Origin: JBHIER01 sp046760705 [NCBI: bacterium]
GTDB lineage: Bacteria; JBHIER01; G020348925
DNA: 5,926 nt
Assembly (NCBI GenBank): GCA_046760705.1
Contig: JBHIER010000230.1
Span: forward strand, 1-5,926
Direction: 5' to 3'
Part shown: one piece after another, positions 2 through 5,508 of the stretch
How positions within the stretch are numbered: the stretch's first letter is position 1
Layout: each line of letters opens with the position of its first letter
Translations under genes and position numbers: made by a program
Notes under the pieces: generated by a model
The model's database searches: none
What the model was told of the DNA's origin: nothing
What the model saw: only the letters and a program-made list of their open reading frames with translations

Positions 2-310
2 AGTTGGATAGGAGCTCTCTACATACGGGGGAGAGCTATGGGCAAGTTTGTAGGTGCGATGGTAGGCGGAACAATAGGCCGTGCTCCCCAGTCCGTCCGA
101 CGCTACCTTGGACTTGGGCTGTTGCCGCAGGCAGGGGTGTCCATCGGTCTCGTGTATTTCTTGGGTGAACGCTATTCTGAACTGAGCCAGCAGGTAGCGG
201 CTGTGGTTCTCTCAGCCATCGTTGTCAATGAGCTGGTGGGCCCCATAGCAGTCCGCTGGGCTATCTCCAAGGCCGGTGAGGGGATTGGCGGGGAGTTTAA
301 AGGAGCATGA
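2..310 (+). CDS. C-terminal end of a Na+/H+ (CPA-type) antiporter, 5' partial
   Basis: The frame is open from the window edge through an internal ATG at 38 to TGA at 308-310, so this is taken as the last ~102 residues of a longer gene and not as a 90-residue gene starting at 38. A GLGLLPQAGVSIGL motif sits in a hydrophobic segment. It is followed by a second hydrophobic stretch (VAAVVLSAIVVNELVGPIAV) and a short polar tail with KAGE. This pattern is typical of the last two transmembrane helices of Kef/NhaP-like sodium/hydrogen exchangers, inner-membrane proteins that swap Na+ or K+ for protons. The preceding residues (GRAMGKFVGA) also fit the inter-helix segment of that family. No strong ribosome site precedes 38. 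The ion specificity cannot be judged from this piece. The next gene follows after 34 bases and may be cotranscribed. Confidence 0.8.
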   Translation, partial: SWIGALYIRGRAMGKFVGAMVGGTIGRAPQSVRRYLGLGLLPQAGVSIGLVYFLGERYSELSQQVAAVVLSAIVVNELVGPIAVRWAISKAGEGIGGEFKGA

Positions 311-344: not shown

Positions 345-1085
345 ATGAAGCGTTTCCATTGGCAGATTATCTTAGGCTTGGTCTTAGTTGTATTATCGGC
401 GATTTTCTACTTCATTCACTATACAATTTTTCGCGATCCCCACCATATTTTCATTTACATGATAGGGGATGTTGCCTTTGTCTTTATTGAGGTTCTCCTG
501 GTTACCCTGATAATCCACCGGCTGCTGAGCGAGAGAGAAAAACGCGCCAGGTTAGAAAAGTTGAACATGGTCATAGGAGCATTCTTCAGTGAAGTTGGAA
601 CGAAACTGTTAACTTATCTTTCAGACTCCGACCCTAAATTGGATAAAATCAGAAAGGAACTTATCGTGACCGGGGACTGGTCTGAGCAGCAATTTTTTAG
701 GGTAAGCAAACGCCTTAAGAATTACGATTATGGAGTTCAGATTCAAAAGGTCGATTTAGAAGACTTACGGAGTTTCCTTGTTGGAAAAAGGGATTTTTTA
801 CTGCGGCTATTGGAAAATCCCAATTTGCTGGAACACGAGTCCTTCACAGAGCTTCTTAGAGCAGTCTTTCATCTTACTGAGGAATTAGAAAATAGAGAGG
901 ATGTAAGACAGTTGCCGGATATCGACTACGAACATCTCGCCGGTGATATAAAAAGAGCTTACATCTTACTGGTCTATCAGTGGTTAGATTATATGAAGCA
1001 TTTGAGTGATAATTATCCCTATCTTTTTTCTCTGGCTATGAGAACAAACCCTTTTGACCAAGAGGCATCACCGATAGTAAGGTGA
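345..1085 (+). CDS. Uncharacterised membrane protein with two N-terminal helices and a cytoplasmic helical domain
   Basis: The product has 246 residues. ATG 345 is preceded by AAAGGGGG about 6 bases upstream. Two hydrophobic segments are visible, at about residues 7-26 and 36-60, joined by a short loop containing FRDPHH. A charged, probably coiled-coil stretch follows (HRLLSEREKRARLEKLNMV, about 58-76), then a long soluble region rich in Leu, Glu and Arg with no catalytic motif that I recognise. The topology suggests an inner-membrane anchor with most of the protein in the cytoplasm. I believe similar proteins occur as conserved hypotheticals in several anaerobic lineages, but no function is known to me. 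The C-terminal 190 residues look all-helical. It may be cotranscribed with the antiporter upstream. A sensor or scaffold role would be a guess. Confidence 0.85.
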   Translation: MKRFHWQIILGLVLVVLSAIFYFIHYTIFRDPHHIFIYMIGDVAFVFIEVLLVTLIIHRLLSEREKRARLEKLNMVIGAFFSEVGTKLLTYLSDSDPKLDKIRKELIVTGDWSEQQFFRVSKRLKNYDYGVQIQKVDLEDLRSFLVGKRDFLLRLLENPNLLEHESFTELLRAVFHLTEELENREDVRQLPDIDYEHLAGDIKRAYILLVYQWLDYMKHLSDNYPYLFSLAMRTNPFDQEASPIVR

Positions 1086-1132: not shown

Positions 1133-1249
1133 TATTTGATAAAAGGCCCTGAAGGAAAAGCTATGGCTTATGTTTGCCGGAATTATAGTTGCAAACAGTC
1201 GACGTCGGACAGAAAGGAAGTGCTCGAGTTACTCGAAGGTGTTCGATAA
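1133..1249 (+). pseudogene. 3' remnant resembling the tail of a YyaL/DUF255 thioredoxin-domain protein
   Basis: Between the membrane protein and the glutaredoxin-like gene, one frame reads LIKGPEGKAMAYVCRNYSCK and ends in a Leu/Glu-rich tail and TAA (1247-1249). The pattern GKA-x-AYVC-x-N-x-x-C, then a short helix, resembles the extreme C-terminus of YyaL/DUF255 (spermatogenesis-associated protein 20-like) proteins of some 600-700 residues. Only about 38 codons remain, and the same frame is closed upstream by TAA at 1130-1132. Before that stop the frame stays open from an ATG at 1094 (12 codons), which may be further remnant or chance. There is no good ribosome site for ATG 1163, so an independent 28-residue gene is less likely. 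The family match is from memory of the tail pattern and is moderately sure. Confidence 0.5.
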
Positions 1250-1272: not shown

Positions 1273-1554
1273 ATGAGCATAAAACACGTCCCAGGAGAAG
1301 ATAGAGGAAAGATCGTACTTTACGCAATGAGCACCTGTGGATGGTGTGCCAAGACCAAGGAGTTGTTGAACAGACTCGGGGTGGAGTATTCCTACGTGGA
1401 TGTGGACAACCTTGACTCGGACGAAAAACGATCCGTTAAGGATGAAGTTCGACGCTGGAACCCGGCCTGCTCCTTCCCGACCATCGTTATTGACGAGGAG
1501 ACCTGTATAAAAGGATATGATGAGCAGAGGATCAAGGAGGTACTTGGAAAATGA
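1273..1554 (+). CDS. Glutaredoxin-like protein with a CGWC active site
   Basis: The product has 93 residues. It shows the thioredoxin-fold layout of small glutaredoxins: a first strand ([13 protein letters not shown]) with a redox-active pair at Cys22 and Cys25, a helix, a second strand (EYSYVDVD), and the cis-proline segment CSFPTIVID before a final strand and helix containing KGYDEQRI. The cytoplasmic role is thiol-disulfide exchange. CGWC differs from the CPYC of classical glutaredoxins, so glutathione may not be the reductant. Start ATG 1273 is supported by AAGGAG at 1258-1263, 9 bases upstream. Its stop overlaps the next start in ATGA (1551-1554), implying translational coupling with the FTR-type reductase. 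I infer that this protein is a substrate or electron acceptor of that reductase. Extra cysteines near the cis-proline (ACSFP) and in the last strand (ETC) are notable. Confidence 0.9.
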
Positions 1555-2081
1555 CGGAAGTACAGGTCACTGATGAAGAGGTTGAACAGCTTTACGAAAA
1601 ATTGGGCAAGGGGGCCGAGGATGCAGGGTACCATCTCAACCCGGATGTTGCGTTTACCAAAAACCTCGTCAGAGGGCTCCTCATTAATGAAAAAAGATAC
1701 GGATATTGGGCGTGCCCCTGCAGGTTGGCGTCCGGTGTCAAGGAGGAGGATCTGGACATTATCTGCCCCTGCGACTACCGGGACCCCGATTTGAGCAAAT
1801 ACGGTGGATGTTATTGTGCACTCTACGTCTCAGAGGAAGTCTTAAAAGGTGAGAGGAGCGTTGGCTCCATTCCCGAGCGCCGTCCTCCTGAAGAAGAGCG
1901 GATAAGGCCAAAACCTACGCCGAAGGATGTCTCGGAACTTCCTATAACAGTGTGGAGATGTCGGGTCTGCGGGTATCTTTGCGCGCGGGAGAGCCCGCCT
2001 GAAGTATGCCCGATATGCAAGGCCAAAAGGGAACGGTTTGAAAGGTTCTCACCCCGCAGCGGTTCAAGAAGTATGAATTGA
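1551..2081 (+). CDS. Ferredoxin:thioredoxin reductase-type catalytic protein fused to a rubredoxin-like domain
   Basis: The product has 176 residues. Residues 1-93 carry the FTR catalytic (beta) signature: CPC at 55-57, CPC at 72-74 and CYC at 87-89. By analogy with the plant and cyanobacterial enzyme, Cys55, Cys72, Cys74 and Cys87 would bind a [4Fe-4S] cluster, and Cys57 and Cys89 would form the active disulfide that is reduced in one-electron steps and passed to a target. After a proline- and charge-rich linker (about 104-130) comes a small metal-binding domain with CxxCG at 136-140 and CPIC at 152-155, like the rubredoxin-type end of rubrerythrin. This domain could deliver electrons in place of, or between, ferredoxin and the cluster. 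The His of the usual CHC motif is Tyr88 here. The gene overlaps the glutaredoxin-like gene by 4 bases, which makes that protein its likely partner. Confidence 0.9.
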
Positions 2082-2115: not shown

Positions 2116-2745
2116 ATGAAAGTCCTAGTGCTCTATTACAGTATGTACGGCCATGTTTTCAAGCTGGCGAAAGCTGTGGCCGAGGGGGTGACTTCGGTAG
2201 AAGAGGTTGAAGGGATTTTGAAGTAAGTGCCAGATTTGCTGCCTGAAGGGGTCATTGAGAAGACCCCGGGCGTCAAAGAGGCCAAGGAGGCTCAGAAGGA
2301 TGTGCCGGTGGCCAGTCCTGAGGAGCTGGGAGACTATGAGGCCATCATCCTCGGCTCCCCCACGCGCTATGGGAATATGTGCGCTCAGGTGGAGAATTTT
2401 CTCGACCAGACAGGACCGCTCTGGGCCAAGGGGGCCCTCATCGGCAAGGTGGCGGGTGTATTCACCAGCACGGCCACGCTGCATGGTGGCCAGGAGACCA
2501 CTCTTTTTTCCATGTTTAAACCGCTCCTGCATCATGGCATGATCGTGGTCGGGATACCTTACTCTGAGCAGCGTCTCATGACAACCACCGGAGGAGGGAC
2601 ACCCTACGGTGCCACCACAGTGGCCGGAGTGCAAGGTGAAAGAGAGCCGTCGGCGGACGAATTGGCTATCGCCAAGACCTTGGGGCAGCGTGTGGCTCAG
2701 GTAGCCAAGGAACTCCAGGCCGGAAGGGAGGCCCTTCAAAAGTAA
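2116..2745 (+). pseudogene. wrbA: wrbA-like NAD(P)H:quinone oxidoreductase interrupted by an in-frame TAA
   Basis: ATG 2116 is preceded by AGGAGG at 2101-2106. The frame opens with [20 protein letters not shown], the flavodoxin-type first strand and FMN phosphate loop of WrbA (loop residues 9-13). Codon 37 is TAA (2224-2226). The same frame then continues without shift from VPDLLPEG to TAA 2743-2745 and carries the remaining WrbA hallmarks: SPTRYGNM (about 81-88), DQTG, HHGM and [13 protein letters not shown]. Total length with the stop is 209 codons, close to the usual ~200. The stop falls where WrbA proteins commonly have a basic residue before VP. GTG 2227 directly follows the stop, but a product from there would lack the FMN loop. 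WrbA is a tetrameric flavoprotein that reduces quinones by two electrons. The rest of the frame is undamaged, so a recent mutation, readthrough or a sequencing error are all possible. Confidence 0.85.
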
Positions 2746-2757
2746 AGGAGATTCAAG

Positions 2758-2968
2758 ATGGCTGATCAAGTTCAAAGGCGTGGGCTGAATTGATAGGGGT
2801 TAAGTCCTATCCTCTGTTGAGCGATTTCTGGCCCCACGTCGAGGTGGCCAAGTGCTATAGTGCGCTGAGGGAAGAGGGCTTCAGCGAGCGGGCCATTTTC
2901 GTTATTGACAAGCAGGGATCATTCGTTACATTCACTCTATACAAAGGAAAGAAAGGGGGTGTAGCTAA
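2758..2968 (+). pseudogene. Peroxiredoxin A remnant: 5' part with catalytic cysteine deleted, plus a frameshift
   Basis: A good ribosome site (AAAGGAG) precedes ATG 2758, which gives MADQV and a few codons, then TGA at 2791-2793. From about 2775 another frame reads KAWAELIGVKSYPLLSDFWP and then EVAKCYSALREEGFSERAIF and VIDKQG. This is the middle and C-terminal part of an AhpC/TSA (BCP/AhpE-like) peroxiredoxin. Roughly 80-90 codons that should lie between, including the peroxidatic Cys motif, are absent. After VIDKQG homology jumps frame near 2916-2918 into IIRYIH, as expected for the family. The loss of one G in a G run explains this. The restored frame ends in TAA 2966-2968, overlapping the next ATG by one base. 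The product cannot be an active peroxidase. The family normally reduces H2O2 and organic peroxides in the cytoplasm. Confidence 0.8.
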
Positions 2969-3267
2969 TGCCGACCTATGTTTTGATGACCAAGCTTTCT
3001 CCGGATGCAGCCAGAGATCTGGAGAAGATGGAGCAGATCGGCAAAGAGCTCGGGGATAAGATCCGGGAGAAATGTCCCGAAGTGAAGTGGATATGTCACT
3101 ACACCTTATTGGGTCCGTATGATTTCCTCGATATTTATGAGGCTCCCAGTGAGGAAGTGGCTGCCAAAGTTTCAATGATCACCCTCTCCTTCGGGATGGC
3201 TGCCGCGGAGAGTTGGACGGCCATCTCCTACGACCGATTTCTGGATTTAGTGAAGGAGATCGGTTGA
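2968..3267 (+). CDS. GYD-domain protein of unknown function
   Basis: The product has 99 residues, the usual size for this family. The start MPTYVLMTKLSPDAA, the central YTLLGPYDFLDIYEAPS and the late FGMAAAESWTA fit the GYD domain. GYD is a small alpha/beta fold related to dimeric ferredoxin-like (ABM-type) domains, named after a Gly-Tyr-Asp triplet that appears here as GPYD. No enzymatic role is established that I know of. ATG 2968 is preceded by a GGGGGTG site about 7 bases upstream. The gene is sandwiched: the frame-corrected stop of peroxiredoxin remnant A overlaps its start (TAATG), and the TTG that appears to begin remnant B overlaps its stop (TTGA). This implies a former three-gene operon in which only the middle gene has stayed intact, so its function may not depend on its neighbours. 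Confidence 0.9.
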   Translation: MPTYVLMTKLSPDAARDLEKMEQIGKELGDKIREKCPEVKWICHYTLLGPYDFLDIYEAPSEEVAAKVSMITLSFGMAAAESWTAISYDRFLDLVKEIG

Positions 3268-3414
3268 CAGAACACGAAAACGAGCTGGCCTTATAGGTAG
3301 GAGATAAGGACCCCGGACTTTAGTCAGCCGACCACCGGGGAGAAGGAAACCGTTGCCTTAAAGGATTTCTTGGGAAAGAGAAATGTTGTTCTTGTCCCCT
3401 CGGCTTTAATTTTC
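3264..3414 (+). pseudogene. Peroxiredoxin B remnant: N-terminal third only, with a stop and a frameshift
   Basis: AAGGAG at 3252-3257 precedes TTG 3264, which overlaps the GYD stop. The frame gives TEHENELAL, TAG (3294-3296), then VGDK. It then shifts by one base near 3310 and continues as PDFSQPTTGEKETVALKDFL followed by GKRNVVLVPSALIF, ending about 3414. Correcting the stop and one extra A yields the standard start of an AhpC/TSA peroxiredoxin: VGDKAPDF, the PTT..GE turn, a LKDF-GK segment, then the NVVL strand that leads into the peroxidatic cysteine. The similarity stops just before that cysteine and runs into the ribosome site of the cytochrome gene. It has its own start region, so it is probably a second peroxiredoxin gene and not the displaced missing part of remnant A. 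It is non-functional as it stands. Confidence 0.75.
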
Positions 3415-3419
3415 AGGAA

Positions 3420-3427
3420 GGGAGGTG
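3420..3427 (+). promoter_or_regulatory. Ribosome binding site fixing the cytochrome start at 3434
   Basis: GGGAGGTG lies 6 bases before ATG 3434, a good Shine-Dalgarno match and spacing. An in-frame GTG at 3425 lies inside this site and is therefore unlikely to be the start. With ATG 3434 the protein begins directly with a signal peptide. Confidence 0.7.
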
Positions 3428-3433
3428 AAAAGT

Positions 3434-3916
3434 ATGGGAAGAGTGAAGTTCTTCAGTTTGTTTGCCCTTTGTCTGGTTTTCGTCCTCGTCTTGGCTCTCT
3501 GGGCCTTCAGCCAGGAGAAGAAGGGACAGATGAAAGGGCAAAAAATGTTGACCCCGGCTCAACAGCAGGCCGAGCTGGCGAAGGTAGTAGAAAAAGGCAA
3601 GGCCCTTTTTTACGACAAGGAGTTGGGAACCAGTGGGATGACCTGCAACTCCTGTCATCTTGAAGGCGGCACCAAAACGAACCCGATGAAGATGAAGGGC
3701 ATGACCATGGATGCCTTTGATAACTTAGGGGCCCAATATCCAAAGTACTTCCCCATGGCCATGAAGGTCATGACCCTTGATCAGGTTATCAATTTCTGTG
3801 TCGTCAATCCTTTAAAAGGAAAACCCTTGACCTTGGATGACCCGAAACTTACCGCTTTGACCACCTACGTGGCATCCATAAAGGGGGAGGAAAAAGGAGA
3901 AAAAGAGAAGAAGTAA
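3434..3916 (+). CDS. Exported monoheme c-type cytochrome, methionine- and lysine-rich
   Basis: The product has 160 residues from ATG 3434. Residues 1-26 form a signal peptide or membrane anchor: a basic start, the hydrophobic core FFSLFALCLVFVLVLALWAF, then SQEKK. One heme c site, CNSCH, is at 71-75, preceded by a helix (ELAKVVEKGKALFYDKELG) as in class I cytochromes c. Downstream, FPMAMKVMTLDQVINFC supplies candidate distal Met ligands and a third Cys. NPLKGKPL and the final helix LTALTTYVASI resemble SoxX-like and related small cytochromes. The protein should act as a periplasmic or membrane-tethered electron carrier. It is unusual for a Met cluster right after the heme site (Met85, 87, 90, 92, then 108, 110, 113) and for a Lys/Glu tail. 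The specific partner is unknown. The gene starts where peroxiredoxin remnant B ends. Confidence 0.87.
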   Translation: MGRVKFFSLFALCLVFVLVLALWAFSQEKKGQMKGQKMLTPAQQQAELAKVVEKGKALFYDKELGTSGMTCNSCHLEGGTKTNPMKMKGMTMDAFDNLGAQYPKYFPMAMKVMTLDQVINFCVVNPLKGKPLTLDDPKLTALTTYVASIKGEEKGEKEKK

Positions 3917-4566: not shown

Positions 4567-4764
4567 ATGGCGAAGAAGAGAGTGGTACCCGAGCACGAGC
4601 TCTATAAAGAGCACGGAGGCCATGAAGAGCATCTCTGTGAACTCGTGTCCAAGCGCAAAATGGACAGGGTCGCGGAACTTTCAAAGGGGGCGAACTACCT
4701 TTGCCACATTTGCGGTCGCGCCGCTGCTAATGCATCTAATCTCTGTGAGCCGGTGGAAATCTAA
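4567..4764 (+). CDS. Small CxxC protein of unknown function (65 residues)
   Basis: The start has a very strong ribosome site. The N-terminal part is rich in His and Glu (HELYKEHGGHEEHLCELV, residues 10-27). The C-terminal part holds CHICG at 46-50 and a final Cys60 in NLCEPV. Four cysteines (24, 46, 49, 60) plus several histidines suggest a bound zinc or iron ion, with CHIC as a zinc-ribbon-like knuckle. There is no signal peptide, so it is probably cytoplasmic. I think short proteins with a CxICG-R-x-A-x-N-x-x-x-LC ending occur in anaerobic sulfate-reducing bacteria, but I cannot name a function. It follows the second cytochrome by 89 bases and is separated from superoxide reductase by 360 bases. 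Confidence 0.78.
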   Translation: MAKKRVVPEHELYKEHGGHEEHLCELVSKRKMDRVAELSKGANYLCHICGRAAANASNLCEPVEI

Positions 4765-4848
4765 GGCGCACCCCGGGCAAGGACAAACGGGGATCGCTTA
4801 TGAGGCGTTCTCTCGGCTGAGGAAATGATAGCTGTGAAGTGGCTCTTT

Positions 4849-4884
4849 CAGAAAAATGCGTTAGCATTTTCTGGCCTCATTTTT
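4849..4884 (+). terminator. Possible transcription terminator after the CxxC gene
   Basis: CAGAAAAATGC (4849-4859) and GCATTTTCTG (4864-4873) pair over 10 bases with one bulged A around a GTTA loop. A TTTTT run follows at 4880-4884. The stem is AT-rich and the T run is 6 bases beyond it, so this is a weak candidate. Its place, about 85 bases after a stop codon and before a new gene group, fits. Confidence 0.4.
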
Positions 4885-4897
4885 CCAAATGTTAAAA

Positions 4898-4939
4898 GGG
4901 GGTGCATATTTCCAAAGTCCAGACAATTTATGCACCTCC
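4898..4939 (+). promoter_or_regulatory. Hairpin in the leader region upstream of superoxide reductase
   Basis: GGGGGTGCATA (4898-4908) can pair with TATGCACCTCC (4929-4939) over 11 positions, including one G-T (G-U in RNA) pair, around a 20-base loop. It lies about 185 bases before the superoxide reductase start. It has no following T run, so it is not an obvious terminator. It could be an operator or a leader RNA element, or chance. It matches no riboswitch class that I recognise. Confidence 0.35.
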
Positions 4940-5124
4940 CTCAAATCGAGCTATCTTCAGTTCTTCAGTGAGAATTACATGTCCAGAATCTGCGGTAGAC
5001 TGCCACTTCCCGGTAGTTTTAACCTGGTATTTTTTAAAAGAGAGGGCGATGCGCTGGGATTCTTCCGAGGATTTCGGGAATGTTGTTGGAAAAAACAGAA
5101 CTGTTTAAAATGGAGGATTGAAAA

Positions 5125-5508
5125 ATGGCTGAACGATTGTCCTGCGAAGAGGATCTCTTCTGCGGTGTGAATAAGGCGAAGGATCCTGGGGCAATGACTG
5201 ATCTGGAGAAGAAACCCACCCCGGTCATTGAGGCCCCGAAGACAGTGAGGAAGAATGAATGTTTCATTGTAAATATTGAGGTGGGTAAATTGCTCCAGCA
5301 CCCTAACGAGAATGGCCACTTTATCCAATGGTTGGAACTGTACGCTGATGAGACATATCTGGCCCGGATGGATTTTACGGCAAAGACGACCTGCCCTAAG
5401 ATGACAGTCTGCGTGAGCTTGGATCACGCTCACGGATTCTTGAGGGTGGTCGAGCGCTGCAATCTCCACGGGCTGTGGGAGGCGGTGAAACAGATAAAAG
5501 TGGAGTAA
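5125..5508 (+). CDS. Superoxide reductase (desulfoferrodoxin/neelaredoxin family), one His ligand apparently replaced
   Basis: The product has 127 residues. It should reduce superoxide to hydrogen peroxide at a mononuclear Fe(His)4Cys centre, with electrons usually from rubredoxin, in the cytoplasm. The iron-site motifs are clear: HPNENGHFIQW (His59, His65) and CNLHGLW (Cys112, His115). The N-terminal ligand normally sits in an EK-x-HTPVI or EKHVPVI segment. Here it reads LEKKPTPVIEAP, with Pro31 (codon CCC) where His (CAC or CAT) is expected. Cys7 and Cys13 near the start do not make the CxxC…CC rubredoxin-type domain of two-iron desulfoferrodoxins, so this is the one-iron type with a ~25-residue extension. 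GGAGG 8 bases upstream supports ATG 5125. The ferritin-like gene follows after 47 bases and is probably cotranscribed, linking superoxide removal with iron storage. Confidence 0.9.
   Translation: MAERLSCEEDLFCGVNKAKDPGAMTDLEKKPTPVIEAPKTVRKNECFIVNIEVGKLLQHPNENGHFIQWLELYADETYLARMDFTAKTTCPKMTVCVSLDHAHGFLRVVERCNLHGLWEAVKQIKVE

Follow-up and report, generated by a model that had tools for sequence, protein, structure and literature searches.

Broken pieces of AhpE-like peroxiredoxin genes on either side of an intact GYD-domain gene in a probably eroding bacterial redox island

An intact gene for a GYD-domain protein is flanked on both sides by broken pieces of AhpE-like peroxiredoxin genes, and the part of the protein that carries the active site is absent from both pieces. 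They lie in a 5.9-kb piece of DNA, from which alone the bacterium is known here and which we call the window, meaning the whole stretch that was analysed. We consider it probable that the two pieces, remnant A and remnant B, are pseudogenes of an ordinary kind and that the redox island around them is eroding; they would most readily derive from two AhpE-like copies, one on each side of the GYD gene. The genes of the window are mostly encoded on the plus strand (Table 1).

Table 1. Recognisable features of the window, in order of position.
Feature	Positions	Strand	Matches and remarks
Small membrane-like protein	38-310	+	No Pfam family
246-aa protein	345-1085	+	Nothing above Pfam cut-off
YyaL/DUF255 (Thioredox_DsbH) C-terminal scrap, 35 codons and stop	1142-1249	+	Matches long frames in relatives
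Glutaredoxin-like gene, intact	1273-1554	+	PF00462, E = 1.4e-14
Catalytic chain of ferredoxin-thioredoxin reductase (FTR) fused to rubredoxin-like domain, intact	1551-2081	+	PF02943, E = 1.8e-20; PF21349, E = 7.8e-15
wrbA (NAD(P)H:quinone oxidoreductase), in-frame TAA at 2224-2226	2116-2745	+	TIGR01755, 198 bits for the portion downstream of the TAA
Remnant A, AhpE-like peroxiredoxin piece	2746-2968	+	AGGAG 2746-2750, ATG 2758, then residues ~82-140, break near 2918
GYD-domain gene, intact, 99 aa	2968-3267	+	PF08734, E = 8.2e-21, 74.3 bits
Remnant B, N-terminal ~50 residues of AhpE-like peroxiredoxin	3254-3414	+	AGGAG 3254, TTG 3264, TAG 3294-3296, break near 3310
SoxA/TsdA-like cytochrome c gene, intact, directly after remnant B	3434-3916	+	PF21342, E = 1.9e-13
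Second c-type cytochrome-like frame	to 4477	+	All matches weak
Small Cys-containing frame	4567-4764	+	No family above its cut-off
Stretch without recognisable gene	4765-5124		No Pfam match for one open frame and three readings of the forward strand
Superoxide reductase	5125-5508	+	PF01880, E = 1.3e-26
Ferritin-like gene	from 5556	+	PF00210, E = 5.6e-18

A first-pass annotation of the same DNA had proposed that two broken AhpC/TSA peroxiredoxin pieces flank the GYD gene, and searches with both pieces agree with this proposal. Remnant A is recognisable even unaltered: positions 2766-2966 match the Pfam AhpC-TSA domain (PF00578, profile positions 72-120 of 124) with E = 3.8e-6 and 27.3 bits (cut-off 26), and when the piece is read across the frame break the match covers profile positions 72-124 with E = 1e-8. 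As a reference we used the intact AhpE-like peroxiredoxin of a relative (locus L206, 162 aa), residues 82-135 of which align to window positions 2757-2918 with 67% identity (E = 1.8e-20). The closest solved structures in a sequence search (E = 2e-10) are one-cysteine peroxiredoxins known as AhpE (1xxu, 4x0x, Rv2238c), and the alignment with them runs over SKAWAE...SDFWPH...IIRYI. The frame of ATG 2758 differs from that of positions 2766-2918, and the end of the piece runs on in a third frame. The earlier description of remnant A as a C-terminal half is right about the family and the lost N-terminal half; about the last 20-25 residues are gone as well and a second break lies near 2918, and what is left is a middle piece. 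In a comparison with 64 relatives, from which loci L105 and L110 had been left out beforehand, remnant A is changed at 2 of 13 columns conserved in at least 90%, which falls within the range of the relatives themselves (median 0, worst 3). The residues ADQV behind ATG 2758 were considered as the stretch downstream of the active site and set aside, as they fit an ordinary N-terminus too. A search with remnant A found no match in 40 genomes of the phylum of genome G017.

Remnant B is weak on its own, with an AhpC-TSA E-value of 0.17 that improves to 0.011 when the piece is read through, both below the Pfam cut-off, and no solved structure was found with it by sequence at E = 0.01. Its relationship becomes visible in comparison with relatives. 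The read-through piece matches the peroxiredoxin of locus L129 with 50% identity (E = 2e-7), and residues 19-51 of the L206 protein, in an alignment over its N-terminal PDF...KNVVLV stretch, match window positions 3313-3414 with 51% identity (E = 3.5e-4), in agreement with its first description as an N-terminal piece. Besides the stop codon and frame break listed in Table 1, about two thirds of the gene is missing. In the same comparison of conserved columns remnant B keeps 5 of 9, and 3 of the 4 misses are at its broken end.

Both remnants thus align, without overlapping, to one AhpE-like (AhpC/TSA) peroxiredoxin family, remnant A by its Pfam match and remnant B by its alignment to the L206 protein. 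The peroxidatic cysteine is, as we count it, residue 55 of that protein; remnant B stops at residue 51 and remnant A starts at residue 82, and residues ~52-81, active site included, are therefore absent from both, as the first-pass annotation had claimed for the cysteine. Whereas AhpE-like peroxiredoxins carry a peroxidatic Cys or Sec in a TxxC/U loop and an unbroken frame of ~150-170 codons, neither remnant has either of these. What remains are recognisable homologues with stops, frame breaks and essential parts missing, as in pseudogenes, and the fragments are probably inactive. Each has a start codon with an AGGAG at the usual spacing before it, as had also been noted; each such site is by itself modest evidence, because the window holds 9 AGGAG-like sites against 4.3 expected by chance.

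The small lesions number five: the TAA in wrbA, two frame breaks in remnant A, and the TAG and one frame break in remnant B. Together with at least three missing blocks they lie between positions 2224 and 3414, and the other open genes that were counted have none. If lesions were spread evenly over the 4860 nt of coding DNA counted, which leaves out the YyaL scrap, the chance that all five would fall in wrbA and the remnants is 3e-4, an argument against sequencing errors scattered evenly. A reading of TAA and TAG as residues was rejected since frame breaks, which no genetic code repairs, are among the lesions.

The GYD gene between the remnants overlaps both of them (TAATG and TTGA, as seen in the sequence) and is undamaged, as had been reported. 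Like its relatives it is full length, matching positions 1-90 of the 91 of PF08734 at a score well above the cut-off of 31.4 bits, and it shares 55-69% identity with the best 80 of 138 relatives, which come from several phyla. Its model has a mean pLDDT of 95.4 and a predicted ferredoxin-like order of elements. The best solved matches to the model are weak (TTHA0845, E = 4.7e-4, TM 0.54) and resemble stand-alone ligand-binding domains of the Lrp/AsnC type; a search of solved structures by sequence returned none. The suggestion that the gene is under selection stands in part. Given 4-5 lesions in the ~330 nt of the remnants, the chance of none in the 297 nt of GYD is 0.03-0.01 under equal neutral decay; on the other side, the chance rises to 0.21 when wrbA is counted in, and of 47 conserved columns GYD retains 41, which places it close to the lowest of the 80 relatives (minimum 40, median 46). 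These comparisons leave selection on GYD plausible, if weakly supported.

Damage in the window extends beyond the surroundings of GYD, contrary to the earlier view of a decay around this gene specifically. The wrbA gene is otherwise well kept apart from its in-frame stop; it has a full-length counterpart in locus L132 (50% identity), and matches in 7 of the 39 genomes searched, at 54% identity at most. Of 28 genomes searched with the YyaL scrap, 7 have a long open frame of 575-797 aa that matches it, with a best E-value of 1.4e-6. Two of the YyaL-matching genes, in loci L104 and L115, were scanned and belong to PF03190, and both sit within an island led by a glutaredoxin-FTR pair. The scrap by itself gave no Pfam match and no plasmid match, and no other part of the gene was found. 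The window appears to have lost YyaL besides peroxiredoxin.

In order to see what an undamaged arrangement looks like, we examined genomic neighborhoods in relatives. The closest ones found share at most 69% (GYD) and 71-72% (FTR) identity with the window, and since none of them is close, an intact ancestor of the arrangement is unseen and two former copies are assumed. Eighteen loci with a glutaredoxin-FTR pair were compared. Sixteen of these (L101-L116) represent 16 of the 50 genomes in which FTR had a match in the phylum of genome G022, with related titles TA06/WOR-3, and L132 and L188 were met when the phylum of G003, which includes a Zixibacteria-titled genome, was searched for peroxiredoxin. 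A peroxiredoxin is present in 13 of the 18 (10 of 15 among loci taken from the FTR list), counts to be read with the facts that L101 was first met through its peroxiredoxin, that loci supplying four of the queries are included and that some contigs end nearby. Among the 13, the peroxiredoxin is truncated in L105 and runs into the next gene in L110. The same loci contain rubrerythrin (12), superoxide reductase (9), glyoxalase-like genes (8), YyaL (6), ferritin (6) and wrbA (1). These islands of two phyla share with the window the leading pair and, in part, superoxide reductase, ferritin, YyaL and peroxiredoxin; they differ from it in that neither GYD nor a SoxA-like cytochrome was found at any of the 18, and in that wrbA occurs in one only. 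The comparison is a loose one, because remnant A is less like the usual island peroxiredoxin (45-62% identity) than like copies encoded elsewhere (up to 71%).

The first-pass annotation had further supposed an ancestral operon of peroxiredoxin, GYD and peroxiredoxin, and here the searches give no support. The 76 peroxiredoxin loci examined (66 and a further 10) yielded no GYD gene, nor did the glutaredoxin-FTR loci. AhpE-like peroxiredoxin was found at none of the 80 GYD loci from the best 80 of 138 relatives, in contrast to the window, where GYD has a remnant on each side. Among 132 genomes of the G003 phylum, 79 have the peroxiredoxin and 100 have GYD, and the nearest pair on one contig among the matches listed is ~176 kb apart (G197, judged by eye). 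A search with a joined query in three further phyla (297, 282 and 47 genomes) revealed no adjacent pair; two of the 297 genomes hold both genes, on different contigs, and one match among the 47, in G949, ran across the remnant A and GYD parts of the query at a locus (L204) where no GYD was found. These neighbor searches are subject to short contigs, and divergent GYD proteins may be missed by them.

Truncated copies of the AhpE-like family, lacking the N-terminal half, occur at 3 of the 76 loci (L105, L204 and L213), and such decay is therefore not unique to the window. In L204 the start region seems to be kept upstream of the gap, much as in remnant A. By eye, the 5' side of L105 resembles the start of the gene that lies two genes before the peroxiredoxin in L132.

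Some further observations concern the surroundings of these genes. In three loci of the phylum of G002 (L206, L210 and L212) an AhpE-like and a second, presumably Bcp-like, peroxiredoxin flank one gene of unknown function; this pair was set aside as a model for the window, as its middle gene is not GYD and its second peroxiredoxin is of the other type. The 246-aa protein is 65% identical to a protein encoded at L018:10468-11205 (G015, a WOR-3-titled genome), ~4 kb from a GYD gene. Matches to it came from 8 of 100 genomes in that phylum, and placing the window by means of it was set aside because of this low count. Viral contigs searched with GYD and FTR yielded no relative, and plasmids searched with wrbA and GYD yielded matches below 60% identity, except for one wrbA match in the 60-80% band.

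Several other explanations of the remnants have to be weighed. The two pieces could be parts of a single peroxiredoxin gene that was rearranged around GYD, either by tandem duplication of a peroxiredoxin-GYD unit with subsequent loss of the outer parts or by a circle that opened inside the gene. The pieces fit this in that they align to the same family without overlap (remnant B to residues 19-51 and remnant A to 82-135 of 162) and that the same 30 residues are missing from both; for this reason the earlier claim of two genes, as opposed to one gene cut in two, is unproven, although the start regions on which it was based are present and support it. However, each piece has an AGGAG and a start at the right distance, only one 13-nt repeat pair is found in positions 2700-3480, and more steps are needed than for two decaying copies. 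We regard a rearranged single gene as unlikely. At least as unlikely, in our judgement, is that the breaks are faults of assembly or sequencing, the true genome being intact or the contig joining strains. The odd length of the window suggests that it is one whole short metagenome contig, which favors such faults, but the clustering of the small lesions in wrbA and the remnants argues against them, and missing blocks of tens of residues are atypical of base-calling errors. Much less probable still is that the fragments work as short proteins, or that programmed frameshifting joins them: ribosome-site-like sequences are kept in their start regions, but the active site is missing, there are several breaks in the frames, and the long frames that cover remnant A (2790-3059) and remnant B (3370-3663) enter the GYD and cytochrome genes out of frame.

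A different possibility is that the lost peroxiredoxins were selenoproteins and that the lineage lost selenocysteine decoding. At 66 peroxiredoxin loci the active-site codon is TGA in 20, of which a pattern recognised 18 and inspection by eye the other two (L129 and L173), and Cys in 45, of which 44 fit the pattern and one (L183) was read by eye; the site is missing in L105. Of the 10 further loci, 8 have Cys and two (L204 and L213) lack the site. The TGA forms, found in L129, L135, L136, L139, L154, L159 and 14 other loci, are probably selenoproteins, judging from the codon at the peroxidatic position. A selA match above cut-off is present in all 20 TGA genomes; it does not separate them from other genomes, because 31 of the 35 others in the search have one too. 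Selenoprotein peroxiredoxins and selenoprotein gene loss are described in PMC1794560. In a smaller tree, without the 10 further loci, the three sequences nearest to remnant A were TGA forms. It has been superseded by the tree with all relatives, in which the three nearest are the Cys forms L206, L205 and L207, and we therefore rate the selenocysteine reading lower. The sequence nearest to remnant B by tree distance is L129, a TGA form, and all these trees are weak, being built from fragments of ~45-60 residues. If this reading were true, loss of decoding would turn all such genes into nonsense at once, here leaving two copies dead and most neighbors whole, and the window would exemplify how the loss of one decoding trait can inactivate several genes jointly; we find this reading the most improbable of the readings considered.

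We therefore return to ordinary pseudogenes in an eroding island as the probable explanation. A thiol-redox and oxidative-stress island, comprising glutaredoxin, FTR-rubredoxin, wrbA, peroxiredoxin, superoxide reductase and ferritin, would be losing its members piecemeal. The AhpE-like one-cysteine peroxiredoxins, most likely two copies flanking GYD, may have become dispensable, and small lesions and larger deletions would then have taken out the catalytic part. The deletions that survived appear to be those that spared the start codons of GYD and the cytochrome gene together with their ribosome sites, possibly because both genes are still in use. The comparisons above correct two earlier inferences, that GYD and peroxiredoxin formed an operon and that the decay centred on GYD. 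What the window would then provide is a small case of a peroxide-defence island that erodes piece by piece, in a lineage for which the material searched holds no close relatives.
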